Shown piece by piece: positions 1 to 18,019 of a stretch of 18,019 nt of DNA. The translations under genes and the position numbers were made by a program. Source of the DNA: Candidatus Iainarchaeum sp. (lineage in GTDB: Archaea; Iainarchaeota; Iainarchaeia; JAGGVJ01); contig JAGGVJ010000036.1 of the NCBI GenBank assembly GCA_021158055.1, forward strand, positions 1-18,019, read 5' to 3'. Numbering within the stretch: position 1 is the first letter of the stretch; the number at the start of each line of letters is the position of its first letter. The notes beneath the pieces are model-generated. The model saw only the letters and a list, made by a program, of their open reading frames with translations, ran no database searches and was not told the DNA's origin.

Positions 1-25
1 AATTCAATTATGTCTTGTAATCTTA

Positions 26-34: not shown

Positions 35-98
35 CTTTTAATACATTCAGAATATATGCATAAAAACAGTATTTTTGCAAGTAAAAGAGGCCTTCTAA

Positions 99-2813: not shown

Positions 2814-2830
2814 TGTTTTTTTGTTTTAGT
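2814..2830 (+). terminator. T-rich tract after the helicase-nuclease gene
   Basis: A T-rich run (eight consecutive T inside 2814-2830) begins directly after the TGA stop on the coding strand, as expected for archaeal oligo-T termination. No hairpin precedes it. Confidence 0.4.
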
Positions 2831-2849
2831 GTTAGTGTTATTATTATTA

Positions 2850-3413: not shown

Positions 3414-3418
3414 ATTGC

Positions 3419-3541: not shown

Positions 3542-3580
3542 GGCAAGTATGTAAGTTTTTATCGTGCGTAAATATTTCAG

Positions 3581-4207: not shown

Positions 4208-4298
4208 TTAATTTTCTTGTTTATTTTTGTATTGAATTTTGACTTGAAAAACTTTTTTGTGCCTGATAAAATTGCGCTCATTTTAACCTGTCCATCTT

Positions 4299-4889: not shown

Positions 4890-5031
4890 GCATCATCTAA
4901 AGAGTTTACAAATACTTAATGCATTAGTTTTTATTTCGTTTAATGGCGGAAATATGCACTGAAAGACATCAGTCATTGTCTAAGCAATAAACCCGGTTTT
5001 CGCAGGGTGTTCGCCCGGCCGTTTTACATTG

Positions 5032-5382
5032 TTACATCCTGCTATTTTCCCTGATGCTGTTGATGATCCCTGTGATATCCCCGCTTGCTTTCCAGAACGT
5101 TACGGAAACCTCATCAAAGGGGTTGGCGTGGATGTGAAATTTATGCGGGGGAATGTCAATTGATTCGCCTTCATTTAAAACGACTTCTTTGACTGCTTCA
5201 TTTTCTTCAAATAGTTTCATGACACATTTTCCCGTAAGTTGAAACAATGATTTGGGAACAGGCCGGTTGTGTTTTGATAATTCTTGTTTAGGATCCAGTT
5301 CCAATGTTCCGACACTTAACTTTTCATCAGAAAAAGCAATCATGATACTGCCTTGCGCTATATTGTATTTTTCGAATTCCAT
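5032..5382 (-). CDS. Cupin-fold protein
   Basis: A 116-residue single-domain cupin. The order of strands and the proline- and glycine-rich turns are typical: LELDPKQELSKHNRP as a degenerate first motif, QLTGKCVMKLFE, then LNEGESIDIPPHKFHIHAN as the second motif. The first motif has one histidine instead of H-x-H and lacks the usual glutamate spacing, so metal binding is uncertain. The later histidines in HKFHIH could still hold a metal. Substrate unknown: cupins of this size include sugar isomerases, dioxygenases and small-molecule binding proteins. It is divergent from the NUDIX gene, and 10-bp repeats overlap its promoter, suggesting a controlled gene. Confidence 0.8.
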   Translation of the reverse strand: MEFEKYNIAQGSIMIAFSDEKLSVGTLELDPKQELSKHNRPVPKSLFQLTGKCVMKLFEENEAVKEVVLNEGESIDIPPHKFHIHANPFDEVSVTFWKASGDITGIINSIRENSRM

Positions 5383-5390
5383 GATATCAC

Positions 5391-5420
5391 TTGATATGAT
5401 TTGATGTGATTTGATTTAAA
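5391..5420. repeat. Three phased 10-bp repeats, TTGATRTGAT-like
   Basis: TTGATATGAT, TTGATGTGAT and TTGATTTAAA follow each other with a period of exactly 10 bases, preceded by the related ATGATATCAC that overlaps the cupin start. One repeat per helical turn places all copies on one DNA face, over the predicted transcription start and TATA box of the cupin gene. An operator is a reasonable guess. Confidence 0.55.
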
Positions 5421-5422
5421 TA
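5413..5422 (-). promoter_or_regulatory. TATA box of the cupin gene
   Basis: Read on the minus strand this is TATTTAAATC, a good archaeal TATA box about 35 bases before ATG 5382, predicting a leader of only about 9 bases. Confidence 0.55.
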
Positions 5423-5435
5423 GTTTTGTCAGACA

Positions 5436-5452
5436 GTTGGTGGGCGACCAAC
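5436..5452. promoter_or_regulatory. Perfect 6-bp inverted repeat in the divergent promoter region
   Basis: GTTGGT and ACCAAC flank a 5-base spacer (GGGCG), placed between the cupin and NUDIX promoters. It could be a regulator site for either gene. A similar GGTTGGTGG run precedes argF but is not an inverted repeat. Confidence 0.4.
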
Positions 5453-5499
5453 CAAATGCAGTTTCAAAGAAATCGCGGGGTTTGCGGATGGTACCAAAA

Positions 5500-5509
5500 T
5501 ATTTTTATA
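5500..5509 (+). promoter_or_regulatory. TATA box of the NUDIX gene
   Basis: TATTTTTATA is centred about 27 bases before ATG 5532, so the transcript would begin at or next to the start codon (leaderless). Confidence 0.55.
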
Positions 5510-5531
5510 ACAAGCGAATCAAACGATTATC

Positions 5532-5981
5532 ATGACTGAAAAAATCAAGGTTATCTGTGCTAATTTAATAGAAGATAACGGCAAAATACTTCTTGTAAGG
5601 GAAACAAAAGAAATAGCAAGAGACAAGTACAACTTTCCGGCCGGAAGGCTTGAGGGAAACGAAAGCATAGTTGAAGGGGCTGTCAGGGAAGCAAAAGAAG
5701 AAACAGGGCTGGACGTCAGACCCGTGCGAATCATCGGGATTTACCAGAAACCAGATTCAAAACAAGAAAATAATGTAACAATAATAGTCTTTAGATCAGA
5801 AATAGTGTCGGGAAAAATAACCGCGTCAGAAGAACACCCTGAAGTAAAGTTTTTTTCGCGCGATGAAATCAGCGGGTTAAACAAAAAAGGGTCGCTTAGA
5901 AGTTCGTATATAACCAAGGCAATGCAGGACTCTGACAACAAGCAGGCTGTCGACCTTTCTTTCCTAAAAATACTGGAGTGA
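5532..5981 (+). CDS. NUDIX hydrolase
   Basis: A 149-residue NUDIX pyrophosphohydrolase. The NUDIX box is complete at residues 38-60: G38, E44 and R52-E53-x3-E57 followed by T-G-L, with the metal-binding REAKEE core. The fold is canonical, beginning with VICANLIEDNGKILLVRE and ending with a strand containing EVKFFSRDEI. Substrate cannot be told; the family cleaves nucleoside diphosphates linked to another group (ADP-ribose, modified NTPs, NDP-sugars). The leaderless promoter supports ATG 5532. It converges with nadM, only 43 bases apart, and both act on nucleotides, but they are on opposite strands and are not co-transcribed. Confidence 0.92.
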   Translation: MTEKIKVICANLIEDNGKILLVRETKEIARDKYNFPAGRLEGNESIVEGAVREAKEETGLDVRPVRIIGIYQKPDSKQENNVTIIVFRSEIVSGKITASEEHPEVKFFSRDEISGLNKKGSLRSSYITKAMQDSDNKQAVDLSFLKILE

Positions 5982-6024
5982 AAATACCACTGCAAAGAGC
6001 CGTTTGCTGCAAAATTTTAGCATT

Positions 6025-6510
6025 TTATCTGTCTTCGATGAACTGCGCGATTTTTTCAGGCACAAGATGTTTCCACTCAATGTTTTCTTTGATGTTCTGC
6101 CTTATTTTTGTGGAGCTGATCCCGTCAAAGATTTCAATGTCCTGCACTTTGTATCCTTTTGACAAAAAAAGCGCCTTTACAAAAGCGTTTCCTGTGAAAA
6201 CCACCTCAAAGTCAGGGCATGCGCGCTCAATGCTTTCCATCCATTCGCCGTGGCTTTGGCAGTCTTTGATTGGGACAATAAAGTATCTGTTTCCGGGTAT
6301 TTTTGCATCTTCAAGCGCGGCTTCAATCATTTCAGTCCTTTGCTTTGCGCTGAAAGGGTTTTTGGAAGTGTTTTCATCCTGAGCGCTCCCGATTATAATA
6401 ACCAGTTTTTCACACGCTTCAAGGATCCTTTCAACTGCCTTCAGGTGGCCGTTGTGAAACGGCTGGAATCTTCCTATAAAAAGCCCTGTTTTTGGTTCTT
6501 CTTTTTCCAT
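6025..6510 (-). CDS. nadM: Nicotinamide-nucleotide adenylyltransferase, archaeal NadM type
   Basis: This transfers AMP from ATP to nicotinamide mononucleotide to form NAD+, the last step of NAD biosynthesis and salvage. Seen in the sequence: the nucleotidyltransferase motif GRFQPFHNGH near the N-terminus, IIIGSAQDENTSKNPFSAKQR, and the C-terminal ISSTKIR corresponding to the ISxTxxR signature. At 161 residues it has the length of archaeal NadM and no fused NUDIX domain. I chose ATG 6510 because an AT-rich GATTAAAAG lies about 27 bases upstream (leaderless); a GTG at 6519 would add three residues. It follows argF on the same strand after 89 bases and may also be read from that transcript. Confidence 0.92.
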   Translation of the reverse strand: MEKEEPKTGLFIGRFQPFHNGHLKAVERILEACEKLVIIIGSAQDENTSKNPFSAKQRTEMIEAALEDAKIPGNRYFIVPIKDCQSHGEWMESIERACPDFEVVFTGNAFVKALFLSKGYKVQDIEIFDGISSTKIRQNIKENIEWKHLVPEKIAQFIEDR

Positions 6511-6599
6511 CAAAGACACAAACCTGTTAGTTTCTTTTAATCTTTTTCTTTTGCAGCCTGCTCGATTTTGCCGTCTGTTTCACAGTCTTTTGCCACTTT

Positions 6600-7517
6600 T
6601 CATTTCAGGCATTCCAGCATGATTGCTTTTTGCATGTGGAGCCGGTTTTCTGCCTGGTCAAAAACAACGCTGTGCCTGCCGTCAATAATCTCGGCAGTCT
6701 GCTCAAAACCGCGCATTGCAGGAAGGCAGTTCATGAAGATGAAGTCCGGCTTTGCGCCCTTGACTATCTCGGAATTCACCTGGAACCCCAAAAACTTCTG
6801 CACACGCTTTTCCTTTTCGCTTTCCGGGATGTGATAGCTCATCCAGCTGTCGGCGTAAACAATGTCAGCGTCTTTGATTGCTTCTTTTGCGTCCTGGGTG
6901 ACTGTTATTTTTGCTTCTGAAACCTGTGCAATGGCATTTGCCTTGTCAACGATTTCCTGTTTCGGTGACAACTCGGACGGACAGCCCACAGAAACATCTA
7001 TTCCCATGTGAGCGCACCCGATGATCAGCGAGTGGGTCACGTTGTTGAACCCGTCTCCCAAAAAGCACAGCTTCAACTTGTCAAAGCGTCCTTTCTTTTC
7101 CTTGATTGTCAAAAGGTCAGACAGGATCTGCACGGGGTGAAAGTCGTTTGTCAGGCCGTTTATCACGGGAACCGACGCGTTTTGTGCCATTTCAACCAGG
7201 TCATTGTGTTCGAAAAGACGCGCCATGATTATGTCAACGTACCGCGAGCTCACTTTTGCGGTGTCTGCCACGGTTTCCTTGCTTTTGAAAGGGCTTGACT
7301 GGCTGTCTATCACAAGCGTGTTTCCGCCCATGGACTGCATTCCCACGTCAAAGGAAATTTTTGTCCGCAAAGACGGTTTTTCAAAAAGCATCATCAGTGT
7401 TTTTCCCGTCAACGCGCCCGAGTACACCTGCGGGTTTTTTTTGATGTCGCCTGCAAGCTCGACAAGATGCAGTATTTCTGTTTTGTCCAGATCAAACAAA
7501 GAGAGTATCGATTTCAT
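6600..7517 (-). CDS. argF: Ornithine carbamoyltransferase-like transcarbamylase with altered signature motifs
   Basis: A 305-residue ATCase/OTCase-family protein that would make citrulline from ornithine and carbamoyl phosphate. Carbamoyl-phosphate motif: EKPSLRTK (46-53, normally STRTR). HPVQ at 127-130 replaces HPCQ. LGDGFNNV (153-160) has one extra residue compared with GDGNNV. The amino-acid loop is DSWMSYH (223-229) where most OTCases have DxWxSMG. NCLPAMRG (263-270) replaces HCLP. The aspartate and serine of DxWxS, the catalytic cysteine (C264) and the C-terminal arginine (R292) are kept, so ornithine remains the best substrate guess. The gene lies just after argG in the direction of transcription, with its own TATA box, which supports an arginine or citrulline role. 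Putrescine or another amine as substrate is an alternative. Confidence 0.85.
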   Translation of the reverse strand: MKSILSLFDLDKTEILHLVELAGDIKKNPQVYSGALTGKTLMMLFEKPSLRTKISFDVGMQSMGGNTLVIDSQSSPFKSKETVADTAKVSSRYVDIIMARLFEHNDLVEMAQNASVPVINGLTNDFHPVQILSDLLTIKEKKGRFDKLKLCFLGDGFNNVTHSLIIGCAHMGIDVSVGCPSELSPKQEIVDKANAIAQVSEAKITVTQDAKEAIKDADIVYADSWMSYHIPESEKEKRVQKFLGFQVNSEIVKGAKPDFIFMNCLPAMRGFEQTAEIIDGRHSVVFDQAENRLHMQKAIMLECLK

Positions 7518-7523
7518 TTCATG

Positions 7524-7549
7524 CCACCAACCAACTGTTTAAATAAAAG
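7524..7549 (-). promoter_or_regulatory. argF promoter: TATA box plus Shine-Dalgarno-like GGTGG
   Basis: On the minus strand CTTTTATTTAAAC (complement of 7537-7549) is centred about 26 bases before ATG 7517, predicting a leaderless transcript. GGTGG (complement of 7524-7528) also sits six bases before the ATG and could act as a ribosome site if argG transcripts read through. argF can thus be expressed both alone and with argG. Confidence 0.5.
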
Positions 7550-7625
7550 GTACTTGTTTGTAGTTAACAAAGTTTCCCTAATGTTTAGTTTTTGCCGATT
7601 ATTTATTTCTTTGCAATTCAAGTTT

Positions 7626-8843
7626 TCATTTCCTGAGTGTAAGGCGCAGTGCATTGAGTTTGATGAATCCTTTTGCATCTTTGGGGTCATAGTCGCCAAG
7701 ATCATCCATGCTTGCAAGGTCCCAGCTGTAAATATTGCTTTGGGATTCCCTGGCGGTCACGAACGCGTTTCCTTTGTAAAGGCTCATCGTCACTTTTCCG
7801 TCGACGTTTTCCTGGCTCTTGTTTACCGCAGCCATCAAAAAGTCCATTTCAGGGCTGAACCAAAACCCGTTGTAGATAAGTTCGGCGATTTTCGGCATGA
7901 GCATGTCTTTCAAGTGAGTCACTTCCCTGTCAAGCACGAGCCCTTCAAGGTCGCTGTGCGCTTTCCAGAGAATTGTTCCGGCAGGGGTCTCGTACACACC
8001 GCGCGATTTCATTCCCACGAAACGGTTTTCAACCAGGTCCATCCTTCCGATCCCGTTGGCTGAGCCAAGCTCGTTCAGATACTGGAAAAGCTCAAGACCG
8101 CCGGTTACGGTGTTTTCCAAGCCGCCGCCTTTGCTTAAGTCTGTGACTTTGACCGGAATCCCGCTTTTGAACTCGATCTCTATTTTTGTTTCAGTGTCAG
8201 GAGCGTTTTTCGGGGAAACAGTTTTTTTGAACATGCTTTCCTGCGCTTCAAACGCAGGGTCTTCAAGCTGCCCTGCCTCGTAGCTTATGTGCATTAAGTT
8301 GTCGTCCATGCTGTAAGGCTTTTCAAACGTTGATTCGATCGGGATTCCTTTTTCCTTTGCATAGTTTATGAGGTCGCTTCTTCCTTTGAACTTGTCAGTG
8401 AATTCGGAGTCTTTCCACGGGCTGATTATCTCAACTTCAGGCATCAGTTGCATGTAGACCATTTCAAACCTTACCTGGTCGTTTCCTTTTCCTGTCGCGC
8501 CGTGGGCGACGATGTTTGTCCCTTCAAGTTTTGCGATTTCAATCTGCTTTTTTGCAATCAGGGGTCTTGCAAAAGAAGTCCCGAGCAGGTATTTTCCTTC
8601 GTATACTGCGTTTGACTTTAACCCCTCGAAAATGTATTTTTCAACAAAATCTTTTTTCAGGTCCTCGACATAAACCTTGCATGCGCCGATTTCCAATGCC
8701 TTTGCCTTTGCTTTTTCAAAGTCGTCTTCCTGCCCGACATCGCCGATGAAGCAGATTACTTCGTATCCCTTGTCAATCAGCCATTTCAGAATCGCTGAAG
8801 TGTCAAGTCCTCCGCTGTAGGCCAGCACCACTTTTTCACCCAT
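7626..8843 (-). CDS. argG: Argininosuccinate synthase
   Basis: This joins citrulline and aspartate with ATP to make argininosuccinate. The 405-residue length is normal for the family. The N-terminal PP-loop YSGGLDTS (9-16) binds ATP. Further conserved blocks are [13 protein letters not shown] (citrulline and aspartate site), the [18 protein letters not shown] segment, and [21 protein letters not shown] strong ribosome site precedes ATG 8843. The gene is followed after 108 bases by argF on the same strand and is divergent from the ACT-domain gene, across a region with a 17-bp tandem repeat. argH is not in the window, so arginine synthesis would need it elsewhere. Confidence 0.97.
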
Positions 8844-8849
8844 TGATGT

Positions 8850-8856
8850 CCACCTC
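8850..8856 (-). promoter_or_regulatory. Shine-Dalgarno of argG
   Basis: GAGGTGG on the minus strand lies six bases before ATG 8843. It fixes the start and shows that argG has a transcribed leader, unlike many leaderless genes nearby. Confidence 0.7.
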
Positions 8857-8911
8857 TTGTTTTTGTTTTAAGTTTTTAGTTTGATAGACACTTAATTGCC
8901 TGAAGAGTAGT

Positions 8912-8945
8912 TATAAACACAGTGGCTGTATAAACATAGTGACTG
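8912..8945. repeat. Tandem 17-bp direct repeat, each with a TATA-like core, between argG and the ACT gene
   Basis: TATAAACACAGTGGCTG (8912-8928) and TATAAACATAGTGACTG (8929-8945) match at 15 of 17 positions with no gap. On the minus strand the first copy gives TTTATA about 70 bases before the argG start, a suitable TATA position for its roughly 45-base leader. The repeat may be a promoter, an operator, or both. Confidence 0.6.
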
Positions 8946-9033
8946 AAACAAAAAACAAAACCGAGAATTGTTCTATTTGAAACATCTACATCAATTGTCG
9001 GGTTATTTGTCATTAAATCCGGGTTCCAGTTAA

Positions 9034-9041
9034 GTTTATTT
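9034..9041 (+). promoter_or_regulatory. TATA-like box of the ACT-domain gene
   Basis: GTTTATTT is centred about 27 bases before ATG 9065, consistent with a leaderless transcript. The match is moderate. Confidence 0.4.
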
Positions 9042-9064
9042 GTATCAATGCCCATAATTGGTTC

Positions 9065-9694
9065 ATGGTCACTACAAGCGAACTCACGGAAAAATTCATC
9101 AACGAGCACGTTTCTGTCAAGGACTGCCTGAAAAAAGGCCTTTTAAACTATTCGGCTTTGTCGCGCTTGATTGCAGGCGAGCTTGACATTGAAAAGGAAA
9201 CATCAAAAGAAGCGATTTTGGTCGCGGCAAGGCGGTACAAAGACAAGATGAAAACCAGGCCGCTTGAAGATTCTGTTTTCAGGCTTTTTGAGGAAAGCGA
9301 CATAGAGATAAAGAACAGGGTTTATGTCTACACGCTTGAAAAAAGCATTTATCCGGACGCGCTGATTGACCTTGAAAAACAGGTAAAAAACGACAAGTGC
9401 ATGGTTTTTTCAATTGAGGGAACAAAGACGATCACGGTGATGATCCAGAAAAGATACAGGGATCTGGTTGAGAAGTCGTTTAAGGGATCCATACTCAACA
9501 TAAAAAAAGAATTGTCGCTTGTGACCATCACCAGTCCGGGAATAGAACAGACAAGGGGTGCATTAAGTTACCTTACCGGGCTTTTTTTCGAAAACGGGAT
9601 AAACATACTTGAGTTCATGAGCTGTTATGACGACACGCTCATAGTGATCGATTCAAAAGACGTTGAAAAAGCGATGAAGTTCTTGAATTTTTAG
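9065..9694 (+). CDS. ACT-domain protein, predicted regulator of amino-acid metabolism
   Basis: A 209-residue protein of an archaeal family described as ACT-containing predicted regulators (COG2150-like). The N-terminal 65 residues (SVKDCLKKGLLNYSALSRLIAG) are helical and may form a helix-turn-helix-like unit. The middle (about 80-150) has a beta-rich stretch, VYVYTLEKS and CMVFSIEGTKTITVMI. The C-terminal ACT domain (about 155-209) has the pattern SPGIEQTRGALSYLTGLFFE, then GINILEFMSCYDDTLIVI, as in aspartokinase regulatory domains, which bind amino acids. Divergence from argG suggests arginine or aspartate sensing; this is inference. A transcription-factor role or post-translational control of an enzyme are both possible. 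Confidence 0.78.
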   Translation: MVTTSELTEKFINEHVSVKDCLKKGLLNYSALSRLIAGELDIEKETSKEAILVAARRYKDKMKTRPLEDSVFRLFEESDIEIKNRVYVYTLEKSIYPDALIDLEKQVKNDKCMVFSIEGTKTITVMIQKRYRDLVEKSFKGSILNIKKELSLVTITSPGIEQTRGALSYLTGLFFENGINILEFMSCYDDTLIVIDSKDVEKAMKFLNF

Positions 9695-9702
9695 GTTCCG
9701 GC

Positions 9703-9748
9703 TTTTAATCTTTGTTTTTGCTTTTATTTTTTACCTTTAACTTTTACT
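9703..9748 (+). terminator. T-rich region after the ACT-domain gene
   Basis: Several T-runs of 4-6 bases (for example within 9714-9732) follow the TAG at 9692-9694 in a short gap between convergent genes. This is consistent with archaeal oligo-T termination of the plus-strand transcript. Confidence 0.45.
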
Positions 9749-9749
9749 T

Positions 9750-10613
9750 TTATGCAAGATCTATAGTCGGCATTTTATATTCTTCTATAAAATGGACTCC
9801 GATGATATTTGCAATCTCAGGTATTTTAGATGCATCAATCAGGGTTCTGATATTTGCGGTTGTCGTGGTCGTACCGCCAAGAGCGTTTATTTTATCAGCT
9901 ATATCTGTCTTGTCTTCACCGCTGAAAACCAAGACAGTTAAAAGTATATTTCCTGTCCTGTCCAGTGAATCTATCAGATCAGGCTGCATTTTGTACGCCG
10001 GCTGATATATTCCCACCCATTTGACGCTATCCAGGTTCTGGACATTATTCTTTGCAGTTTCACTCATCTTTACAATAAATGCATGTTCCGGGATATAGCC
10101 GTGCATTGTTCCGCCCAGAGAGATGATGTCGTTTTTGTCTTTGTCGTATACCGAGCCTTTGAACTGGACAATATAATACCCGTCGGCTTCAGGAGAATAA
10201 GAGGGAACGCAAAGATTTTTTGGTATGTGGATCCCAATGTGATCCGAATCAATTTCGGAAGAGGAAAATGCTGTAAGTGCCACTAACTTTATCGTTTTGG
10301 GAATTTTGATAATACAATTTTCGTTCGTTTTTTCTCCGTTTGCGTATGCTTTTGATTCTAAATTTGGTTCAGCGTGCTTTATTCTTTCGTCTTGTTTAAG
10401 TTTGCAGATCCATTCAAATTCCAGACCCTCAGGCACTTCTACGTGAACACAGTTGCAAAGGTCCCAATATTTTTTCACGTTCAAGTCGTATTCACTCATC
10501 ACATCTCTGATCTCTTTCTCTGGAAATTTTTCATCAAAACTTACGATTATGCTGCCGGGAAGATAGCTATAATTTTTTGACTTTAATTCATCAATGCATT
10601 GTTTGACATTCAC
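9750..10613 (-). CDS. Subtilase-prodomain-like protein without a catalytic domain (downstream part of a UGA-split ORF)
   Basis: The 287 residues from GTG 10613 resemble the N-terminal propeptide region of secreted S8 (subtilisin-like) peptidases. Residues 18-84 (YLPGSIIVSFDEKFPEKEIR to RIKHAEPNL) match fervidolysin-type prodomains. Later segments, YYIVQFKGSVYDKDK, LGGTMHGYIPEHAFIVKM, VKWVGIYQPAYKMQP and GVHFIEEYKMPT, resemble the longer prodomain that usually ends just before the catalytic Asp-His-Ser domain. Here the protein stops at that boundary; only 55 bases separate it from the ACT gene. The frame is continuous upstream through 11 codons (with CINNQC) into the TGA at 10647-10649 and the exported N-terminal part. 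Without readthrough it would lack a signal sequence. It could be a stand-alone protease inhibitor or a decayed protease. Confidence 0.72.
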   Translation of the reverse strand: MNVKQCIDELKSKNYSYLPGSIIVSFDEKFPEKEIRDVMSEYDLNVKKYWDLCNCVHVEVPEGLEFEWICKLKQDERIKHAEPNLESKAYANGEKTNENCIIKIPKTIKLVALTAFSSSEIDSDHIGIHIPKNLCVPSYSPEADGYYIVQFKGSVYDKDKNDIISLGGTMHGYIPEHAFIVKMSETAKNNVQNLDSVKWVGIYQPAYKMQPDLIDSLDRTGNILLTVLVFSGEDKTDIADKINALGGTTTTTANIRTLIDASKIPEIANIIGVHFIEEYKMPTIDLA

Positions 10614-10646
10614 TGCACTGCATTGGTTATTTATGCACGCAGAAGC

Positions 10647-10928
10647 TCAAATTTCAGTATTTAACGGACACGCTCTGCTGCAGGTACTGACTCGCTCTAA
10701 ATGCCGATGGTGTATGTTGACAGCTATATTCGGCGGTGAACAGCATTCTCCTCCGCTGATTAATATGCAATCGTCATTTCTTTCGCAATATTTTGAATCT
10801 TTATATTTTTCAGGTATCTGATTTGAAGAGGTATCGCTCCAAATCCAGGATCCTCCGATCAATATGATTACAATGACTAAAATTCCGGTCAGGATTTTTG
10901 TTTTTGAATTCATTTTGATCCTTCTCAT
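10647..10928 (-). CDS. Exported Cys-rich N-terminal part of the prodomain ORF, ends at in-frame UGA
   Basis: This 93-residue segment starts MRRIKMNSKTK, followed by a hydrophobic stretch (about 12-30, ILTGILVIVIILIGG), a signal anchor or signal peptide. After that comes a Cys-rich module: YCERNDDC, GGECCSPP, then CSRAC. The last expected cysteine pair, CINNQC, lies just beyond the TGA at 10647-10649, in the same frame as the 287-residue prodomain ORF. Such modules (C..DDC...CC...CVNNxC) are common in exported archaeal proteins, so the natural protein most likely spanned 10928-9750 (about 393 codons). If translation stops here, the Cys-rich module is incomplete. ATG 10928 fits a leaderless promoter; ATG 10913 is an alternative. 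Confidence 0.7.
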   Translation of the reverse strand: MRRIKMNSKTKILTGILVIVIILIGGSWIWSDTSSNQIPEKYKDSKYCERNDDCILISGGECCSPPNIAVNIHHRHLERVSTCSRACPLNTEI

Positions 10929-10945
10929 AATCTATTGATTACCTT

Positions 10946-10960
10946 GTTATTTATAAAAAG
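10946..10960 (-). promoter_or_regulatory. TATA box of the exported Cys-rich/prodomain gene
   Basis: On the minus strand CTTTTTATAAATAAC is centred about 25 bases before ATG 10928, predicting a leaderless transcript. The intact promoter argues that the gene is, or was recently, expressed despite the in-frame UGA. Confidence 0.55.
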
Positions 10961-11124
10961 TTTGGTGGTGGGTAATATTTCATTTAACACTTGGGATTAA
11001 GAAAAATTTGCGGAACGAAGTAGGCGGACTTACAATTTCCGATAATTTGTGTGATTAAAAGAAGTCTGATTAAAAGAACCCGCGCTTTTTGAGTTCCCTC
11101 CGCCGCCGAAAATTTAGTCCTGTT

Positions 11125-12117
11125 TTATTTCTTTTTTATCAGGAAATATCCCGCGAATAAGATACCTGCCGCACCCACCCATTGCACTGGAGACAAAATT
11201 TCCCCCAGCAGGATATAAGCAAATAGCGCTGAAAACAATGAACCTGAGAGGAAAAATGTAGTCGTAATAAACGGGCCGACTAATTTTATCGCCCTGTATT
11301 GGCAGATCACAGACAGGAAATATAAAATCGCAGTGAGTACAACATAAAACAGACCGCTGAATAATGCGTTTATGCTTTGATGACCCAAAATGAAAGGAAT
11401 AAACATTACTATTAATAATGCACTTAAACAAACCCTGAAGAAGATGACCATATCTGTTGATATACCGTCCATGATTTTCTTGGCGAAAACATTTTGAAAT
11501 GCCACAATCGAGGCAACAAATATTATCAGCAAGTCACCTAATTGAGGAATTGTCATAGCCCCGTCAGTTATCAATAAAAATGCCCCGATCAGCATCATGA
11601 ACATAAAAAATATCGAACTTTTGGGGTATTTTTCTTTTAATAAAATATAAGCAAGAGGCAATACAAACAAGGGGGTTAACCGGGTAAGGAATCCCGCGTT
11701 TACTGCTGTTGTAACATTTTGCCCCAGAAATAAGATTAAAATAGCTGAGGCGGAAACAACCCCGAGAATAACCAAATCCCTTAATTCATATCTTTTGATA
11801 GATTTCAACTTCTTTAACTGTGGCGAGAAGAAAATAAGTGAAATAAAAATGACTATGATGCTCCGTGAAAATGAAAAGGATAACGGGTCCAGACCAAAAT
11901 TTAAGCCCATTTTTTGAATGACTATCAGCAGACCATAAAACAGGGAAGTTCCGGTCAGATAAGCCAATGCGATTTTATTAATTTTTCCTATGTATAAACA
12001 ATTAAATCTATTTATTTTAAGCTTTCTTTTATCAAGCGGCATAAACACTGGTTTAGTGGCCCGGGTTGAAACAAAAGGCAGATTTTGCATATTTTTTTGC
12101 ATATTTAAAGACATATT
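11125..12117 (-). CDS. EamA/DMT-superfamily transporter
   Basis: An integral membrane protein with about ten hydrophobic segments in two repeated EamA halves, beginning at IALAYLTGTSLFYGLLIVI and ending FAGYFLIKKK. The loop after the fourth or fifth helix (TRLTPLFVLPLAYILLKEKYP) and its counterpart in the second half (GSLFSALFAYILLGEILSP) are hallmarks of drug/metabolite exporters. The substrate is unknown; family members move amino acids, nucleotide sugars or organic cations. Several ATG codons lie close together (12156, 12117, 12105, 12093, 12042). I chose 12117 because a longer form would overlap the start of the divergent DsbA-like gene; 12093 fits a leaderless start from the shared AT-rich box, and 12042 would keep all the membrane part. 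The start is therefore uncertain, the family is not. Confidence 0.9.
   Translation of the reverse strand, partial: NMSLNMQKNMQNLPFVSTRATKPVFMPLDKRKLKINRFNCLYIGKINKIALAYLTGTSLFYGLLIVIQKMGLNFGLDPLSFSFSRSIIVIFISLIFFSPQLKKLKSIKRYELRDLVILGVVSASAILILFLGQNVTTAVNAGFLTRLTPLFVLPLAYILLKEKYPKSSIFFMFMMLIGAFLLITDGAMTIPQLGDLLIIFVASIVAFQNVFAKKIMDGISTDMVIFFRVCLSALLIVMFIPFILGHQSINALFSGLFYVVLTAILYFLSVICQYRAIKLVGPFITTTFFLSGSLFSALFAYILLGEILSPVQWVGAAGILFAGYFLIKKK
12083..12106. repeat. Exact 12-bp tandem duplication near the EamA start
   Basis: TTTTGCATATTT occurs twice without a gap. It lies in the 5' end of the EamA reading frame (encoding NMQKNMQN if translated) and just upstream of the DsbA-like gene's TATA box. 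Confidence 0.6.
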
Positions 12118-12126
12118 TTTAAAATA
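12114..12126 (+). promoter_or_regulatory. TATA box of the DsbA-like gene, possibly bidirectional
   Basis: TATTTTTAAAATA is centred about 28 bases before ATG 12148, predicting a leaderless transcript. The box is nearly palindromic and also sits about 27 bases before an ATG of the divergent transporter (12093), so it might serve both directions. Confidence 0.55.
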
Positions 12127-12147
12127 ACATGCACTTATAGTTAATTT

Positions 12148-13428
12148 ATGGTGCATGCAAAAAAACAGAATTTTCTTTTCCTGATGTCAGCAGCGGTTTT
12201 TATTCTGGTCCTGTTTATTGCTTTTTTGATTTTTTCGCCCGAGACAGGCGGAAAACTGCGAGTGCCGCCGGACCAGGGGATTCAGGCAGAACTTTCATGC
12301 AGTTTTACTGACGACAAAATATTTTGCACCTGGGAAAAATGCACGCACGAAATAAGCTACGTTGTCGAAAACAATGGGAAAGCAAGCCTTGAACACGCTT
12401 CAATAAGGATCACCGCAGGGGGCAGAGAGCAAAGATTTGACCTGAAAAACATTTCTCCGGGAGAAAAAGCAGAGGGGCAGGTAACTGTTGACTCAAGCCC
12501 GGGCACAAACTATCTTTTTTATGACCTGAGCGCTTCAAACGCAAGCATAGCAGACTGCGACGGCATCATAAAAAGAACTTCGTGCCCGAATCTATGCCTT
12601 GGAAAAGGGCTCTGTTATTTGAACACGTGTTCGCAGGACACTGATTACATATGCAGTTACGAGTCCAGAAGCGATTGCTGCGGAAACGGGATCTGCGAAG
12701 AAGGGGAAACATATGCCTTGTGCGAAAGCGATTGCGAGCCCCCGGAATGCGGTGAATGCGAGACACTGGCAGGCGGCGTGTGCGTGACTGACTTTGAAAA
12801 ATGCCCTGAAAAAGAACCGCGAAAACTCACTGGTTTTGAAACACAGCTTGTGCGTTACGCCAGAGAAATCGGTCTGGACGCTGACAGGTTCAAGGCATGC
12901 ATGGAGTTTGACGAGAAAAAAGAAGTTGTTGAAGAACAGATTTACGACGGGTTTGAAAAATACTGGATAAACCACACCCCCACATTTGTCCTGGCAGGAA
13001 ACATCAAGGTAGTGGGCGACAGCACAACGCAAAAAATGGCAGACCTCATTAACCAGGTTTTAAATCAGGAAATTGACACAAAGTCGTTTAAGGCAACTGA
13101 AAGCTACATGGTGATGGCACAGCCAAGTGCTTTTGACCCGGACCAGGTTCAGATACAGGAATTTTTTGACTTCAAGTGCCCTTACTCAAAACAGGCGCAG
13201 TTCACAGTAAAAGAACTTGAGTCGTTGTTTGGCGAAAAAGTCAGGTTTGTGTTTAAGAACTTCCCGCTTGACACTGACTGCAACCAGTTCATTGAAAGGC
13301 AGAAGCACCCCGGCGCGTGTTCTGCGGCGTATGCAGCGGAATGCGCAAGAGACCAGGGAAAATTCAGGGAGTTCAAAGAAAAAGTTTTTGAAGAACAGGA
13401 AGATTCTTTTTCTTTTGTCGTAGAATAA
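12148..13428 (+). CDS. Exported Cys-rich DsbA-like protein with thioredoxin halves in permuted order
   Basis: A 426-residue protein. Residues 8-30 form a signal anchor; 45-140 look like a CARDB/beta-sandwich domain (IFCTWEKCTHEISYVVENNG to LFYDLSASN). Residues 146-219 are Cys-rich, with a CGNGICEEGETYALCESDC repeat common in exported proteins. Residues 228-308 match the C-terminal half of DsbA: LVRYAREIGLDADRFKAC and the cis-Pro segment NHTPTFVLAG (P278). Residues 333-420 match the N-terminal half: IQEFFDFKCPYS with C344 and S347, then VRFVFKNFPL, CSAAYAAECARDQGKFREFKEKVFEEQ. The normal order is the reverse, so this looks like a circular permutation. The active site is CPYS, not CPYC, suggesting monothiol or isomerase-like chemistry at the outer cell surface. 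A tandem-domain remnant is the alternative. The leaderless promoter supports ATG 12148. Confidence 0.85.
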   Translation: MVHAKKQNFLFLMSAAVFILVLFIAFLIFSPETGGKLRVPPDQGIQAELSCSFTDDKIFCTWEKCTHEISYVVENNGKASLEHASIRITAGGREQRFDLKNISPGEKAEGQVTVDSSPGTNYLFYDLSASNASIADCDGIIKRTSCPNLCLGKGLCYLNTCSQDTDYICSYESRSDCCGNGICEEGETYALCESDCEPPECGECETLAGGVCVTDFEKCPEKEPRKLTGFETQLVRYAREIGLDADRFKACMEFDEKKEVVEEQIYDGFEKYWINHTPTFVLAGNIKVVGDSTTQKMADLINQVLNQEIDTKSFKATESYMVMAQPSAFDPDQVQIQEFFDFKCPYSKQAQFTVKELESLFGEKVRFVFKNFPLDTDCNQFIERQKHPGACSAAYAAECARDQGKFREFKEKVFEEQEDSFSFVVE

Positions 13429-13451
13429 TGAAATTTTCCAGTAATTAATGA

Positions 13452-14468
13452 TTAGAAAACAGAATTCTTTTTTTTGTCGTTAAAAAAACCTGTTATGTTT
13501 TCAGCAGTGGTTTTTAAGATGCGCTCAATTGCTTCCGTGCTGTTGAATGCGTTGTGCGGCGTGATTATGACGTTTGGCTGGGACAAAAGAATGTGATTTC
13601 CCGCCAAAGTCACAAGTTTTGCGTAATCAAATTTTTTTGAAAGAATCTGGCTTTCTTCTTTAATAAGGTCTTCTTCTTCAAGCACATCAAGTCCGGCGCC
13701 GCCAAAAACCTTGTTTTGAAGCCCTTCAATCAACGCATTGGTTTCCACAAGCCCCCCGCGGGCAGTGTTTATCAAAACAGCCCCTTTTTTTACAAGGTCC
13801 AGGTTCTGCCTGTTGATCAAGTGGTGAGTGTGCTTGTTGTAAGGGGCATGAAGAGAGATTATGTCAGAACACGAGAGAAGCTTTTCAAAAGAAACGTATC
13901 TGAAACCCAGCTTTTTTTCAAGCGACGGGTCTTTTTTCACGTCAAAAGCAACCACGTTCATCTCAAACCCTTTTGCAATCCGGATCACGTGTTTTCCTAT
14001 TTTCCCGACACCGACCACTCCAAGGGTCTTTTTTGCCAAGTCAAACCCGCGCAAGTCGTCGATTGAAAAGTCTCCGCGGATTGTTTTTTCGTAAGCAAGG
14101 TGAATCTTTCTTGAAATATTCAGGATGAGTCCGAAAGTGTGTTCAGCAACAGTGTTTTCACCGTAAGAGGGCACGTTGCATACAGTTATGTCTCGTTTTT
14201 TGCATTCGTCGACTGCAATGTGGTCAAACCCTGTTGATCTTGTTGCAATCAGTTTCAATGCAGGCAGTTTTTCAAGCAGATCAGAATCAATTTTTGACGT
14301 GATAAAAACAGATACGCAGTCAAGGTCTTTTGCAAGTTCCGCGTTTTTGCCTGAAAGCTTTTCGCTGAAAAAACTAACCTGCGCCTTTGGCATTAATGCT
14401 TTAAGGAATTCTTTTTCTTCTTCATTTTCAATTTCAAAAAATCCTGTTTTCGGCTTTTGCATGTTCAT
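13452..14468 (-). CDS. D-2-hydroxyacid dehydrogenase (D-lactate dehydrogenase-like)
   Basis: A 338-residue NAD-dependent enzyme reducing 2-oxoacids to D-2-hydroxyacids. The N-terminal catalytic domain has KLIATRSTGFDHI (73-84) and the VPSYGENTVAEHTFGLIL helix. The Rossmann motif GVGKIG is near 153-158. The catalytic set is NTARGGLVE (Arg), GLDVLEEE (Glu) and TPHNAFNSTEAIE (His). The pattern is nearest to D-lactate dehydrogenase LdhA-type proteins, but glycerate, phosphoglycerate or glyoxylate reduction cannot be excluded. The start has two ATGs (14468 and 14462); no clear TATA box precedes them, and the upstream region is occupied by the 17-bp tandem repeat. It converges with the DsbA-like gene, 23 bases away. 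Confidence 0.92.
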   Translation of the reverse strand: MNMQKPKTGFFEIENEEEKEFLKALMPKAQVSFFSEKLSGKNAELAKDLDCVSVFITSKIDSDLLEKLPALKLIATRSTGFDHIAVDECKKRDITVCNVPSYGENTVAEHTFGLILNISRKIHLAYEKTIRGDFSIDDLRGFDLAKKTLGVVGVGKIGKHVIRIAKGFEMNVVAFDVKKDPSLEKKLGFRYVSFEKLLSCSDIISLHAPYNKHTHHLINRQNLDLVKKGAVLINTARGGLVETNALIEGLQNKVFGGAGLDVLEEEDLIKEESQILSKKFDYAKLVTLAGNHILLSQPNVIITPHNAFNSTEAIERILKTTAENITGFFNDKKKNSVF

Positions 14469-14503
14469 TTTAGATGCCTTGTTGCGTTGATGGGTTAATC
14501 GGC

Positions 14504-14588
14504 TTGTCCAGTTGTTCGGCTTGTTCAGTTGTTCGGCTTGTTCAGTTGTTCGGCTTGTTCAGTTGTTCGGCTTGTTCAGTTGATCGGC
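14504..14588. repeat. Five tandem 17-bp repeats (minisatellite)
   Basis: The unit TTGTTCAGTTGTTCGGC occurs five times head to tail; the three inner copies are identical and the outer two differ by one base each (C at position 5 in the first, A at position 12 in the last). The array lies 36 bases upstream of the dehydrogenase start. A 17-base period is not a multiple of three, so it is not a coding repeat. Confidence 0.9.
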
Positions 14589-14764
14589 TCAGTAGTTACT
14601 CCGGTCATCATAAGTCAGACTGGGACGGTTTCTTCATAGCCATATTAAATATGGTTTTTGTTGTTTTTAATCTGCTTGTTTTATGTTCTTTTGCCATTTA
14701 CTTTGCTTTTTTTGTATCTGTTGTCATTTGCATGCCCGGGTCTGAAAAAAGTCTGAAAAGATAT
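14589..14764. other. Non-coding gap with a palindrome and T-rich stretch
   Basis: Together with the repeat array this fills the 296-base gap between mtaD and the dehydrogenase. It contains a 15-base palindrome CCATATTAAATATGG (14640-14654) followed by a T-rich run to 14669, resembling a plus-strand hairpin-T terminator, though no plus-strand gene precedes it. On the minus strand GTCTGAAAA repeats (14741-14760) supply T-runs just after mtaD that could end its transcript. No convincing gene was found. Confidence 0.4.
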
Positions 14765-16024
14765 TCATTTTTTTAATTTCAAAAAAATTTCGTTTACTTT
14801 CCTCAAGATTTCTTTTTCCCCTTTGACTTTTCTTCCATGCATCAACACTCTGCCGTCGCAAATTACTGTGTCAACGCAGTCACCTGTTGCAGAATACACC
14901 AGGTTGGACACAAGGTTGTAATTCGGGTTCAGTTTTGTGTTGTTTAGGTCAACCAGCAGCAAGTCAGCCAATGTGCCTTCCTTTATTTTCCCGCAATTCA
15001 GCCCGAACGCTCTTGCGGCGTTCACGGTGGCCATGTCAAAGCATTCCTGCGCAGGCAGGACAACAGGGTTGCCGGCATTTGATTTCTGGAGCAGGGACGC
15101 GAATTTCATTTCTTCAAACATGTCAAGGCTGTTGTTTGAAGCGGAACTGTCTGTTCCGAGGCACACGTTCAACCCGGCTTTTTTCAGTTTTTCAAAAGGC
15201 AGCACGCCCGAGCCAAGCTTCATGTTGGACGCGGGGTTGTAAACTATTGTCACGCCGTGTTTTTTCAGTATCTTTATTTCGTTGTTGTCAAGCCAGATTC
15301 CGTGAGCCGCAATGACATTCAGGCCCGGGGCGAAAAACTCTATGCTTTCAAGGTACTCAACAGGCCTTTTTCCGGTTTTTTTCACGCAGTCATTTACTTC
15401 TTTTTCTGTTTCGCTTAAGTGAATGTGAACAGCCAGGTTGTTTTTTTCAGCGCAGTCTTTTATCCAGACAAGCCCTTCCCTTGACACCGTGTAGATTGAG
15501 TGCGGAGTCAGCACAGGGACTATCCTTGAATTGTTCAGTTTTTTTGCGTAATCAACGAATTTTTGCGCGGCGTCAATTTCTTTTTTTCTTTTGCTTTCAT
15601 CAGAAAAGTCAAGCATGGCGTGGCCGAGGAAAGCGCGCATCCCGGATTCTTTCACTGCCTGCGCAACCGCGTCCATTGAAAAGTACATGTCGTTGAAACA
15701 AGTGGTTCCGCTTTTTATCATTTCAAGGCAGGCGAATTTCGCACCCCAGTAAATGTCTTCCCTTGACAGTTTTGCTTCAACAGGCCATATTTTTTTGTTC
15801 AGCCACTCGTCCAAGACCATGTCGTCTGCAAAGCTCCTGAGCAGGTTCATTGCAGAATGAGTGTGCGCATTGATAAGGGAAGGAATTGCAGCTTTGCCTG
15901 AACCGTCTATTGCAATGTCTGCGTTTTTTTCAATGCTGCTGCCTATTTTTTCAATGCTGTTTCCTTTAATGAAAATGTCTTTGGTTTCATTGTCTAACAA
16001 GACGTTTTTTATTAAAATACCCAT
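14765..16024 (-). CDS. mtaD: MtaD-type amidohydrolase (SAH / 5'-methylthioadenosine / 5'-deoxyadenosine deaminase)
   Basis: A 419-residue zinc amidohydrolase that deaminates adenosine-derived by-products of SAM chemistry. Ligands visible: H54-x-H56 in INAHTHSAM, the HIHLSETEKEV segment near 198-208, AAHGIWL near 240, and D in GTDSSASNN near 291. The SFADDMVLDEWLNKKIWPVE block following the HxH motif is typical of the SAH/MTA deaminase group and separates it from atrazine-type hydrolases. Archaeal relatives prefer 5'-deoxyadenosine, SAH or MTA; the preference is not readable here. AAGGAG (complement of 16033-16038) eight bases before ATG 16024 fixes the start. It follows the GNAT gene on the same strand after 64 bases and may be the last gene of that operon. 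Confidence 0.92.
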   Translation of the reverse strand: MGILIKNVLLDNETKDIFIKGNSIEKIGSSIEKNADIAIDGSGKAAIPSLINAHTHSAMNLLRSFADDMVLDEWLNKKIWPVEAKLSREDIYWGAKFACLEMIKSGTTCFNDMYFSMDAVAQAVKESGMRAFLGHAMLDFSDESKRKKEIDAAQKFVDYAKKLNNSRIVPVLTPHSIYTVSREGLVWIKDCAEKNNLAVHIHLSETEKEVNDCVKKTGKRPVEYLESIEFFAPGLNVIAAHGIWLDNNEIKILKKHGVTIVYNPASNMKLGSGVLPFEKLKKAGLNVCLGTDSSASNNSLDMFEEMKFASLLQKSNAGNPVVLPAQECFDMATVNAARAFGLNCGKIKEGTLADLLLVDLNNTKLNPNYNLVSNLVYSATGDCVDTVICDGRVLMHGRKVKGEKEILRKVNEIFLKLKK

Positions 16025-16032
16025 ATGGGTTT

Positions 16033-16038
16033 CTCCTT
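16033..16038 (-). promoter_or_regulatory. Shine-Dalgarno of mtaD
   Basis: AAGGAG on the minus strand, eight bases before ATG 16024, decides the start and indicates translation from a leadered transcript. Confidence 0.65.
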
Positions 16039-16088
16039 TGTGTTGTCAGTATCAATATTTCAACAGGCATGACCAATCAATGATCAGA

Positions 16089-16544
16089 TCATTCAAGCAG
16101 CCTGAAAAGAAAAGATGACGGTCCCGGCTTGTTTGAACCTTCGCGCAGAAACCTGAACCCGAAGTTTTCATACAGCTTTACGGCTTTGACGTTGCTGTCA
16201 GCCACTTCAAGAATCACTTCCGTACATTGCTTTTCTTTGAAAAAATCCAGTGCTTTTTCAGTGAGTCGGAACCCAACCGAATGATTCCGGAATTCCGGCA
16301 CAACAACAAGCCCCACGATTATTGCCTTGTTTTCTGTGAGCTGAACGTCAATAAAACCCGCGAATTCATTGTTCAAAAACGCGCAAAACATGAAAACGTC
16401 TTTGTCATCGAAGCGTTTTTCAAATTCTTTGAGTGAATCGTCAACGTAAGGAAATTCTTTTTTCATCAGATTGTAAATAGCATCTAACTCGGTTTTTTCA
16501 GCAGGGCATATCCTGATTCCCAGCTGCCCTATTTGTCTGCTCAA
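16089..16544 (-). CDS. GNAT-family N-acetyltransferase
   Basis: A 151-residue acetyl-CoA-dependent acetyltransferase. The core is visible: FMFCAFLNNEFAGFIDVQL (strands), IVGLVVVPEFRNHSVGFRL, which is motif A with V-x-P-x-x-R and a slightly degenerate R-x-x-x-x-G turn, then LEVADSNVKAVKLYENFGF, a motif B typical of RimI-like enzymes. The substrate (protein N-terminus, aminoacyl group or small molecule) is unknown. TTG 16544 is preferred because GAGGTGA (complement of 16549-16555) lies four bases upstream, overlapping the stop codon of the PIN gene. That arrangement indicates translational coupling to it. Confidence 0.85.
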   Translation of the reverse strand: MSRQIGQLGIRICPAEKTELDAIYNLMKKEFPYVDDSLKEFEKRFDDKDVFMFCAFLNNEFAGFIDVQLTENKAIIVGLVVVPEFRNHSVGFRLTEKALDFFKEKQCTEVILEVADSNVKAVKLYENFGFRFLREGSNKPGPSSFLFRLLE

Positions 16545-16548
16545 GGGT

Positions 16549-16555
16549 TCACCTC
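16549..16555 (-). promoter_or_regulatory. Shine-Dalgarno of the GNAT gene inside the PIN gene's stop
   Basis: GAGGTGA on the minus strand includes the TGA stop of the upstream PIN-domain gene and sits four bases before TTG 16544. It decides the unusual TTG start. Confidence 0.6.
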
Positions 16556-17217
16556 AAAATCTTCAGGTACTCGCGGATTTCTTTTTCGCTTACTGAACAT
16601 CCGCCGAACTTGCACGCGTAAAGGCTTGCTTCAAACGCGTGTTTCGGGTGTGAAAACCGGCCTTCGAAAAGCTTGTTTTCATAGGCAAGCGCAACCATTT
16701 CGCTTGAACGGATTACTTTAACGTCTTTGACAATCGAGTTGAAGCGCTGTAACGCGTCTTTGTCTATTGACACGGTTTTTTTGTATTTGAACGACAGGTA
16801 ATCCTGCAGTGACTTCGGGTCTTCAATGAGCGCCCTTGTGGTCCGCTCATCAATCAGGAGAGCGGCGTTTTTTTTCAATGCAAACGCAAGGGCTTCTGAT
16901 TCACCGCGATGAATCAGGTTTATGTTTTTGTTTCTTATGCTCATTATTTTGTTTGCTGAATTTTCAAGCTTGATTGCTTCTTTTTCCATGTTTGAGCTGT
17001 CAATTGTCAAAAGCCCGTTTCTTATCGCGCGCTCTATTCTCATTGCCTTTAGCCTGAACCGCTTTGACTGCTTTGGGTTGTCAACTGTTTCAGAGCGGAC
17101 CGCTTTCAACAATATGTACTCGCCGTTGAGGTCTTCTTTGAGTTCTTCAAATATCCATGCGAAGCAGTTGTCAAAAAGGGTTATTATCGAGCTTGAATCG
17201 CAGATGAGGTCAGGCAT
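16549..17217 (-). CDS. PIN-like domain protein, VapC-type fold
   Basis: About 222 residues. The N-terminal LICDSSSIITLFDN provides the first PIN aspartate. HRGESEALAFALKKNAALLI supplies the central glutamate (GExEA pattern) and LIDERTTRAL the following aspartate with arginine, as in DUF3368-like PIN proteins. A C-terminal extension of about 80 residues (SIDKDALQRF onward) has no recognised motif. PIN proteins are Mg-dependent RNases, many of them toxins, but the operon setting with no antitoxin suggests an RNA-processing or housekeeping role. ATG 17217 is chosen because GGGGTGA (complement of 17223-17229) precedes it by five bases; a GTG at 17226 lies inside that ribosome site. Its first codons overlap the end of the upstream gene by eight bases. 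Confidence 0.72.
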   Translation of the reverse strand: MPDLICDSSSIITLFDNCFAWIFEELKEDLNGEYILLKAVRSETVDNPKQSKRFRLKAMRIERAIRNGLLTIDSSNMEKEAIKLENSANKIMSIRNKNINLIHRGESEALAFALKKNAALLIDERTTRALIEDPKSLQDYLSFKYKKTVSIDKDALQRFNSIVKDVKVIRSSEMVALAYENKLFEGRFSHPKHAFEASLYACKFGGCSVSEKEIREYLKILR

Positions 17218-17782
17218 TTTTTTCACCCCCGAAGATTGTTTTTGTGGTGCTGAAGCGTTGTTTTAAGTTCACTCCGCGAAAGTCCTTTTCTTCTCTTGGG
17301 GTTTCCCTTGTGGAGCCGATGTAAAGCATTACCTCGTCTTTTGGAGCCCCTGTAAGGTCAGCCGAGTCGGAAAGCGACCTTCCGAGCGAGTAAAGCCTTG
17401 AAGCCTGTTTTATCCTTGCCTTGTCCATCAAAAAAGTGGCGAAGTTTCCTGATTCCTTGTCCAGGACGTGAATTGCGAGTTCTGCCATGTGAAGCGATTC
17501 TGTAAATTTGTCGCCGTTGCCTTCATTTAAGGCCATGACCGCGGAAGAAAGAGTGTGAGTGATGTCTTTGTTGAACTCCCCCCATGTTTTTTGTTTTTTG
17601 AAATGGATTTTTGAAATAATTTTGCTTAAAGAATAGCACAGGAGAGAAACTTTAGCCAAGGTTTTGTCATGGTGGAGTGATGCTTCCTCAATCAAAGTGT
17701 TGCTGATGAAACGAAGCGCTTCAGGGTTTTTTGCAACCCACGCAGATTTTACTCTTTCCATTATCGCCGTAAATTTTACCAT
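17210..17782 (-). CDS. Uncharacterised helical protein
   Basis: I do not recognise this protein of about 190 residues. It is predicted to be largely alpha-helical and soluble: long amphipathic stretches around MERVKSAWVAKNPEALRF, TLAKVSLLCYSLSKIISKI, DITHTLSSAVMALNEGNG and FTESLHMAELAIHVLDKESG. A less ordered C-terminal tail follows (STRETPREEKDFRG to the end). No enzymatic motif or signal peptide is visible; the helical pattern suggests a TPR-like or four-helix adaptor. ATG 17782 is preferred over TTG 17794 because the TATA-like box at 17801-17811 would place the transcript start at the ATG. It is the first gene of a compact set with the PIN and GNAT genes, so a shared role is likely. Confidence 0.7.
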   Translation of the reverse strand: MVKFTAIMERVKSAWVAKNPEALRFISNTLIEEASLHHDKTLAKVSLLCYSLSKIISKIHFKKQKTWGEFNKDITHTLSSAVMALNEGNGDKFTESLHMAELAIHVLDKESGNFATFLMDKARIKQASRLYSLGRSLSDSADLTGAPKDEVMLYIGSTRETPREEKDFRGVNLKQRFSTTKTIFGGEKNA

Positions 17783-17800
17783 TTTACCAGTCAACTGTTT

Positions 17801-17811
17801 GTTTAATAAAC
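17801..17811 (-). promoter_or_regulatory. TATA box of the helical-protein/PIN/GNAT operon
   Basis: GTTTATTAAAC on the minus strand is centred about 24 bases before ATG 17782, consistent with a leaderless first gene. No other promoter is evident before the PIN and GNAT genes. Confidence 0.5.
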
Positions 17812-17852
17812 GCTGATTTGTTTAAAATAAGATTCTTCTTTCTTTTTTAATC

Positions 17853-17882
17853 TTTGCGTGAAAACAATTTTGCGTGAAAACA
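17853..17882. repeat. Short direct repeat, TTTGCGTGAAAACA twice
   Basis: Two identical 14-base copies (17853-17866 and 17869-17882) are separated by two bases, in the gap between the operon promoter and the edge gene. Function unknown. Confidence 0.6.
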
Positions 17883-17892
17883 GGTTACTGGT

Positions 17893-18019
17893 TTAAAACA
17901 CAAAAACCCTGGCGTTTTTCACTGCGCTTTCGACTAATTTTTTAGATTCAATGGCTTCCTTGCATTTTTCAAGGGTTTCCTTGCCTGCCCGGAGTTCAGG
18001 GTGCTTTGGAACAAAGTAA
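17893..18019 (-). CDS. Partial gene at the right edge (C-terminal 42 codons)
   Basis: An open frame enters from the right edge and ends at TAA 17893-17895. The last residues read YFVPKHPELRAGKETLEKC, then KEAIESKKLVESAVKNARVF, then VF. The composition and helical character look like real coding sequence, and codon use resembles the neighbours. I do not recognise the family; the start lies outside the window. Confidence 0.6.
   Translation of the reverse strand, partial: YFVPKHPELRAGKETLEKCKEAIESKKLVESAVKNARVFVF

Follow-up and report, generated by a model that had tools for sequence, protein, structure and literature searches.

A well-established laboratory approach to finding out which chain connections are needed for folding is to permute DsbA circularly at random. 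In E. coli DsbA the loop between LFEGVQ and DIRDVFINAGI contains the T99/Q100 junction, which we take to be equivalent in position to the natural cut described below. The engineered permutant DsbA(Q100T99) has been crystallised (PDB 1UN2; the corresponding paper is Manjasetty 2004, as cited in PMC2213659) and, according to the title of the entry, it keeps the global DsbA fold; permutation of DsbA is also the subject of Hennecke 1999, as cited in PMC3281007. Natural rearrangements have been described in neighbouring systems. The TRXL1 domain of UGGT is DsbA-like, but its helices have been shifted in front of the thioredoxin portion, giving the topology aaaa-bab-abba (PMC7687155, PMC8024514), FmdE represents a natural circular permutation in a thioredoxin-like fold, and in the same pathway as DsbA a natural circular permutation has been recognised for DsbB/VKOR, for which duplication and deletion have been proposed (PMC4555120). 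We found no earlier report of a natural DsbA permutant in the open-access literature, and as far as could be found the permuted DsbA order was known previously only from the laboratory.

Here we describe an open reading frame from Candidatus Iainarchaeum sp. (contig JAGGVJ010000036.1, positions 1 to 18,019; this stretch of 18,019 nucleotides is referred to below as the window) encoding a DsbA-type thioredoxin domain that we consider, with a probability of about 0.88, to have been circularly permuted in nature. The window protein resembles 1UN2 in the order of its halves and in the location of the cut within the same helical-insertion loop, but 1UN2 was made in the laboratory, whereas the natural permutants are equipped with an N-terminal anchor and a long linker, and the window protein itself carries CPYS. 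Its likeness to UGGT TRXL1 (Z 5.3 over 120 residues, VIA) is more limited in topology. All four helices of TRXL1 precede bab-abba, whereas the cut in the window protein falls inside the helical insertion, so that helices are found at both ends. The N-terminal domain of FmdE (PF02663) is not a DsbA, has a different cut and binds metal rather than containing CxxC. In the case of DsbB/VKOR it is the membrane partner that is permuted, whereas here it is DsbA.

Reversed order of the DsbA halves in the window protein

The gene is complete (12148..13428, + strand, as are all of its features given below) and consists of one open frame encoding 426 amino acids plus stop. Codon usage in both DsbA halves is like that of the neighbouring housekeeping genes (ORF score 0.121) and this resemblance collapses in the two shifted frames, from which we conclude that the ORF is a real coding frame. 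Direct reading of the sequence reveals a hydrophobic N-terminal segment (residues ~9-30, 12172..12237) that is a probable signal anchor, and export and membrane anchoring of the protein are probable. This is followed by a weak CARDB-like beta-sandwich region (residues 63-116, 12334..12495), which matches PF07705 with E values of 0.0026 to 0.0002 (Pfam), under the curated cut-off, and by a Cys-rich region containing 15 cysteines (residues 137-219, 12556..12804). The CGNGxCExGExxxxCxxDC-type motif of the latter is also present in many larger proteins of the window's class; beyond this motif, a search of 87 genomes from that class found no orthologues of the N-terminal region (residues 1-231). 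A DMT-family transporter gene (11125-12156, - strand) has an ORF start that overlaps the start of the permuted dsbA; its codon usage (GC3 0.38, score -0.062) is unlike that of its neighbours, and it possibly represents a recent acquisition or has been assigned a wrong start. The window also encodes an archaeal-type NMN adenylyltransferase.

The C-terminal half of DsbA is placed first (residues 228-308, 12829..13071) and contains Cys251 (12898..12900) and a TPT motif at residues 277-279 (12976..12984). This motif, which includes P278, aligns with TPA/TPT of homologues, and the cis-proline loop is therefore present. A linker of 24 residues with low pLDDT (309-332, 13072..13143) would join the old C terminus to the old N terminus. 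The N-terminal half is placed last (residues 333-420, 13144..13407) and contains the active-site motif C344-P-Y-S347 (13177..13188), which lacks the second cysteine of the CxxC dithiol, and Cys399 of AAECA (13342..13344), identified by sequence alignment. A tail of six residues (421-426) and the stop codon follow (13408..13428), so that the chain ends in the helical-insertion loop, where a cut separating the helix that ends LF(E)xQ from the helix LxxYAxxLGLD would have opened the new termini.

This order is evident in each of the profile and pairwise comparisons. The match to PF01323 (1.8e-12, 47.9 bits against a cut-off of 25.6) comprises two swapped stretches that reach both ends of the profile, with positions 124-190 at residues ~234-302 followed by positions 1-42 at residues 335-377, and PF13462 is matched by positions 101-164 first and 15-93 second. 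The phmmer alignment with PDB 3GYK is likewise swapped, residues 333-409 corresponding to chain 23-87 and residues 230-285 to chain 99-153. Profiles that we constructed from DsbAs of normal order in the window's archaeal class detect the C-half at residues 231-306 (E 3e-24) and then the N-half at residues 333-419 (E 2e-26). The two halves are complementary, amounting to exactly one domain with no overlap and no element missing, and the chain runs C-half before N-half rather than as the bab, helices, abba of a DsbA-type domain.

The reading frame, coordinates, residue numbers and motifs given by the sequence-only reading were correct (TPT 277-279, P278; CPYS 344-347, C344; 426 aa). Its proposal that the DsbA halves are reversed is borne out independently by Pfam and by the swapped 3GYK alignment, and the separate-half profile search that it suggested agrees; Pfam, the class profiles and the alignment also concur with its view that the joined halves recreate one DsbA. 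As it had stated, no missing half is encoded past the stop, since the gene ends at 13428 and an antisense dehydrogenase gene ends at 13452. Direct reading of the neighbouring sequence ruled out a missing DsbA half both upstream and downstream of the gene.

Permuted and tandem relatives

When an alignment of the N-half was scanned against 84,980 species genomes, seven bacterial loci appeared high in the list with a C-half, then an N-half and nothing after. These derive from Amesbacteria, Gottesmanbacteria, Levybacteria and other Microgenomates. Further searching enabled us to verify 80 distinct ORFs with the permuted order (79 besides the window protein), among which L170 is truncated at the end of its contig and another, L064/L143, is partial. 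The majority come from a single class of Patescibacteria comprising Microgenomates lineages, in which 68 of 373 genomes (~18% of those sampled) were verified by fetching and re-scoring after a permuted-profile search that gave many matches in one stretch over the full length. Ten more were obtained from a 379-genome sample of the Patescibacteria phylum, and two, including the window protein, are from Diapherotrites archaea. Only one permutant in addition to the window protein was found among the 87 genomes of its class (L168, family f9), which has the motif CPFC and the C-terminal end LFQTQDNWSNLS.

The examination of homologues for conservation of the order, as suggested by the sequence-only reading, thus gave a positive outcome, and almost nothing extends past the N-half in these 80 proteins: 0-9 residues follow the N-half match in 75 of them and 12-22 residues in the other five. 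The gap between the two half matches ranges from 23 to 74 residues, with a median of 43 (26 in the window protein). The active-site motif is CxxC in 79 cases (CPFC in 47, CPYC in 29 and three others), CPYS being found only in the window protein. When compared with six bacterial permutants, the window protein aligns over the whole domain with 32-39% identity and has the same end, and a joint permuted profile, in which it is itself a row, scores it at 251 bits over positions 2-205. The bacterial permutants that we read have a hydrophobic N-terminal segment directly before the C-half. A variation is observed in L175, L176, L211 and L212, which end ~20 residues later and have a correspondingly later start of the C-half, whereby the helix LxxYAxxLGL is C-terminal and not ahead of the C-half. 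This constitutes a second cut position, and the position of the cut has therefore moved at least once. No match was obtained when genome contigs were searched with the window protein alone, and no relatives were found in viral contigs or in plasmids; the window protein is divergent (end branch of 2.3 in a quick tree) and without a close orthologue.

The best relatives of the window protein within its own class are normal-order, single-domain DsbAs. The closest to its N-half is the Diapherotrites protein L002/L061 (50% identity over 82 residues), which has in common with it the insertion CN-x8-HPxAC; this likeness hints at an independent archaeal origin of the permutation but does not prove it. 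Motifs of the CxxS/T type also appear among normal-order relatives (CPYT in 6 and CPYS in 3).

Tandem DsbAs in which two domains give the arrangement NCNC are encoded both in the window's class (L003 and L040) and in other archaea (L068 and L240-L245). These DPANN proteins contain the same succession of C-half, linker and N-half, which aligns end to end with the window protein, in contrast to which both of their domains are complete; in L003 and L040 a single stretch running from the first C-half through the linker to the second N-half aligns with the window protein. In 371 genomes from the phylum to which L068, a Woesearchaeota record, belongs, where matches with E below 1e-38 were considered, all verified spanning matches were tandem and none was a permutant. 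The Diapherotrites tandem proteins (L003, 1041-2522, and L040) have lost their active-site cysteines (DPFS, GPFS, SPYV) and possess Cys-rich C-terminal tails, and their domains have apparently been reused as non-catalytic modules. The sequence-only reading had named two-domain homologues as one observation that would count against permutation. Such homologues do exist, but the C-N order is conserved in 79 other proteins, and the tandem class is better read as a route to the permutant than as a refutation of it. The most likely origin would be a tandem two-domain DsbA from which the first N-half and the last C-half were lost.

A quick tree of 144 de-permuted domains (162 columns, poor support) requires 12 changes of order in its best form, at least two of which are forced by the starred branches. 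In AU tests, a single clade of permutants was not rejected (p 0.233), and holding the window protein with the main bacterial clade improved the likelihood (p 0.752). We advance tentatively, and at clearly less than even odds, a scenario in which DsbA was permuted several times, in Patescibacteria and separately in Diapherotrites, at two or more nearby cuts, yielding a class of membrane-anchored oxidoreductases that carry their anchor on the helical cap and not on the thioredoxin core. In this scenario the window protein would be one of the archaeal cases, having since become a protein with a single thiol and a client-binding or isomerase-like role.

Predicted fold and alternative explanations

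The AF2 input comprised residues 222-426 together with an alignment in which permuted proteins were supplemented by rows for the individual halves. The resulting model is a single compact domain (pLDDT 88.3, pTM 0.85; weaker in the linker and tail) in which the elements follow the order HHH-EE-H and then E-H-E-HH. In a Foldseek search with this model, 1UN2 was the sole significant structure (E 4e-6; the next was at 0.07). Comparison with VIA gave a Z of 14.8 for 1UN2 (162 residues, rmsd 2.9), all others reaching no more than 5.3 and mostly matching in one half. Ordinary DsbA/Thioredoxin_4 proteins (PF01323, PF13462; e.g. 3GYK, BdbD and TsdA) share both halves, the cis-proline and the helical insertion with the window protein, but have the normal order and mostly superpose through one half, with Z up to 5.2 (VIA). 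Similarly, the permuted profile matches 1UN2 in one stretch (16-158 to 15-151), whereas ordinary DsbAs are matched in two stretches or in one half. The structure prediction called for by the sequence-only reading has thus produced one compact domain whose full-length match is to 1UN2 only, but a control behaves alike: the first C-half and second N-half cut out of the normal tandem DsbA L068 gave a pLDDT of 91.4, a pTM of 0.86 and a Z of 14.0 to 1UN2. Since this cut-out packs equally well, the AF2 model speaks for the feasibility of a closed fold only, and we do not take it as proof of packing in the window protein. The weight of the case for permutation consequently falls on the conserved order in 80 proteins. 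The circular-permutation reading is founded on the order in the sequence, the complementary halves, the recurrence of this order in 79 further proteins and the feasibility of the fold.

In a circular permutant the halves would pack into one DsbA fold with C344 beside cis-Pro278. C251 and C399 do not vary across the alignment of permuted proteins, and a disulfide between them would staple together the two segments that permutation has made terminal. In normal-order proteins both members of this helical cysteine pair are present in 136 cases and both absent in 3, with none having a single member, a co-occurrence that is partly selected, as the scan pattern required the N-half cysteine (loci L057-L136).

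It is conceivable that the C-N chain is real but that DsbA folds are completed between molecules, as in a domain-swapped dimer. With 26 residues between half matches, compared with a family median of 43, the linker of the window protein is among the shorter ones, and single-chain predictions do not distinguish a swap from closure; nevertheless AF2 closes the chain with confidence and 1UN2, which has the same cut, retains the global DsbA fold according to its entry title (Manjasetty 2004, as cited in PMC2213659). We consider such a swap to be improbable. The existence of two-domain homologues whose first C-half and second N-half match the window protein as one stretch is also what would be expected of an eroded tandem DsbA that has lost its outer halves, leaving two half-domains without a joint fold, as a product of decay or as structural filler, and the divergence of the window protein and its missing active-site cysteine fit with this. 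Complementary remaining pieces, however, arise in only ~9% of random double truncations in a simple simulation, nearly the same cut has been retained in 79 other proteins with intact CxxC, and both halves of the window protein have the codon usage of a normal gene, all of which makes erosion highly improbable. Finally, although the window is an 18 kb contig in a 45-contig genome, an assembly or annotation artefact in which repeated DsbA genes were collapsed or mis-joined is scarcely credible, given that collapse of an N-C-N-C repeat would give N-C and not C-N, that the gene is one continuous open frame of uniform codon usage, that the genome has no second ordinary DsbA copy for mis-joining and that the C-N order is seen in 79 other ORFs from other genomes.

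Redox context and implications

The presence of CxxC in 79 of the 80 proteins points to a family-wide role as oxidoreductases, and the permuted proteins are most likely extracytoplasmic, membrane-tethered thiol-disulfide oxidoreductases. The membrane tether would be attached to the helical cap rather than ahead of strand 1. The sequence-only reading had referred to the window protein as a permuted oxidoreductase. The first part of this description holds, as 80 ORFs share the same order, but the second is doubtful because the motif is CPYS and not CxxC. The window protein is a DsbA-fold relative, and the absence of its second cysteine speaks against the function of a standard oxidase. VKOR (PF07884) was not detected in the window genome (1.15 Mb, 95% complete, 45 contigs), whereas PF07884 matched in 11 of 18 other permutant-bearing genomes tested. 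On account of the CPYS motif and the lack of a detectable VKOR, we give roughly even odds to the view that this protein is a single-thiol exchanger or client-binding module (an isomerase, reductase or trap), which we find more likely than an oxidase.

No other ordinary DsbA was found among the PF01323 matches of the host genome. The remaining matches are a thioredoxin-membrane protein and a double thioredoxin-like protein of 613 residues (L032, 586-2427, - strand, on contig C6), which has CPHG and CPYG replacing CxxC in its two thioredoxin-like domains. Adjoining the second archaeal permutant is a gene for a small membrane protein (L168, 636-1172, - strand), which contains the motifs CASC and CPEC, has no Pfam or NCBIfam match and is a possible redox partner. 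In eight Patescibacteria loci (L057, L058, L059, L064, L150, L155, L156 and L158) a thioredoxin reductase-like gene is located directly upstream of the permuted dsbA, with a gap of -142 to 81 bases. The representative in L057 (1333-2310) scores above the cut-off for TIGR01292, and the arrangement suggests an operon of the two genes in one sub-lineage.

The reversed order recurs in 79 other proteins, mostly from the tiny Patescibacteria, which indicates that nature retains the permutation of DsbA. Profile searches that follow the N-to-C order report permuted DsbAs as two fragments, and these proteins are therefore easily mis-annotated or missed. The natural permutants are cut in the loop used for the engineered, crystallised permutant, and ~18% of the genomes sampled from one bacterial class encode them. 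Together with their unpermuted relatives, those with intact CxxC provide material for studying the effects of permutation on redox potential, and the same comparison could be extended to membrane geometry and to the choice of partner, be it VKOR or the thioredoxin reductase-linked operons.
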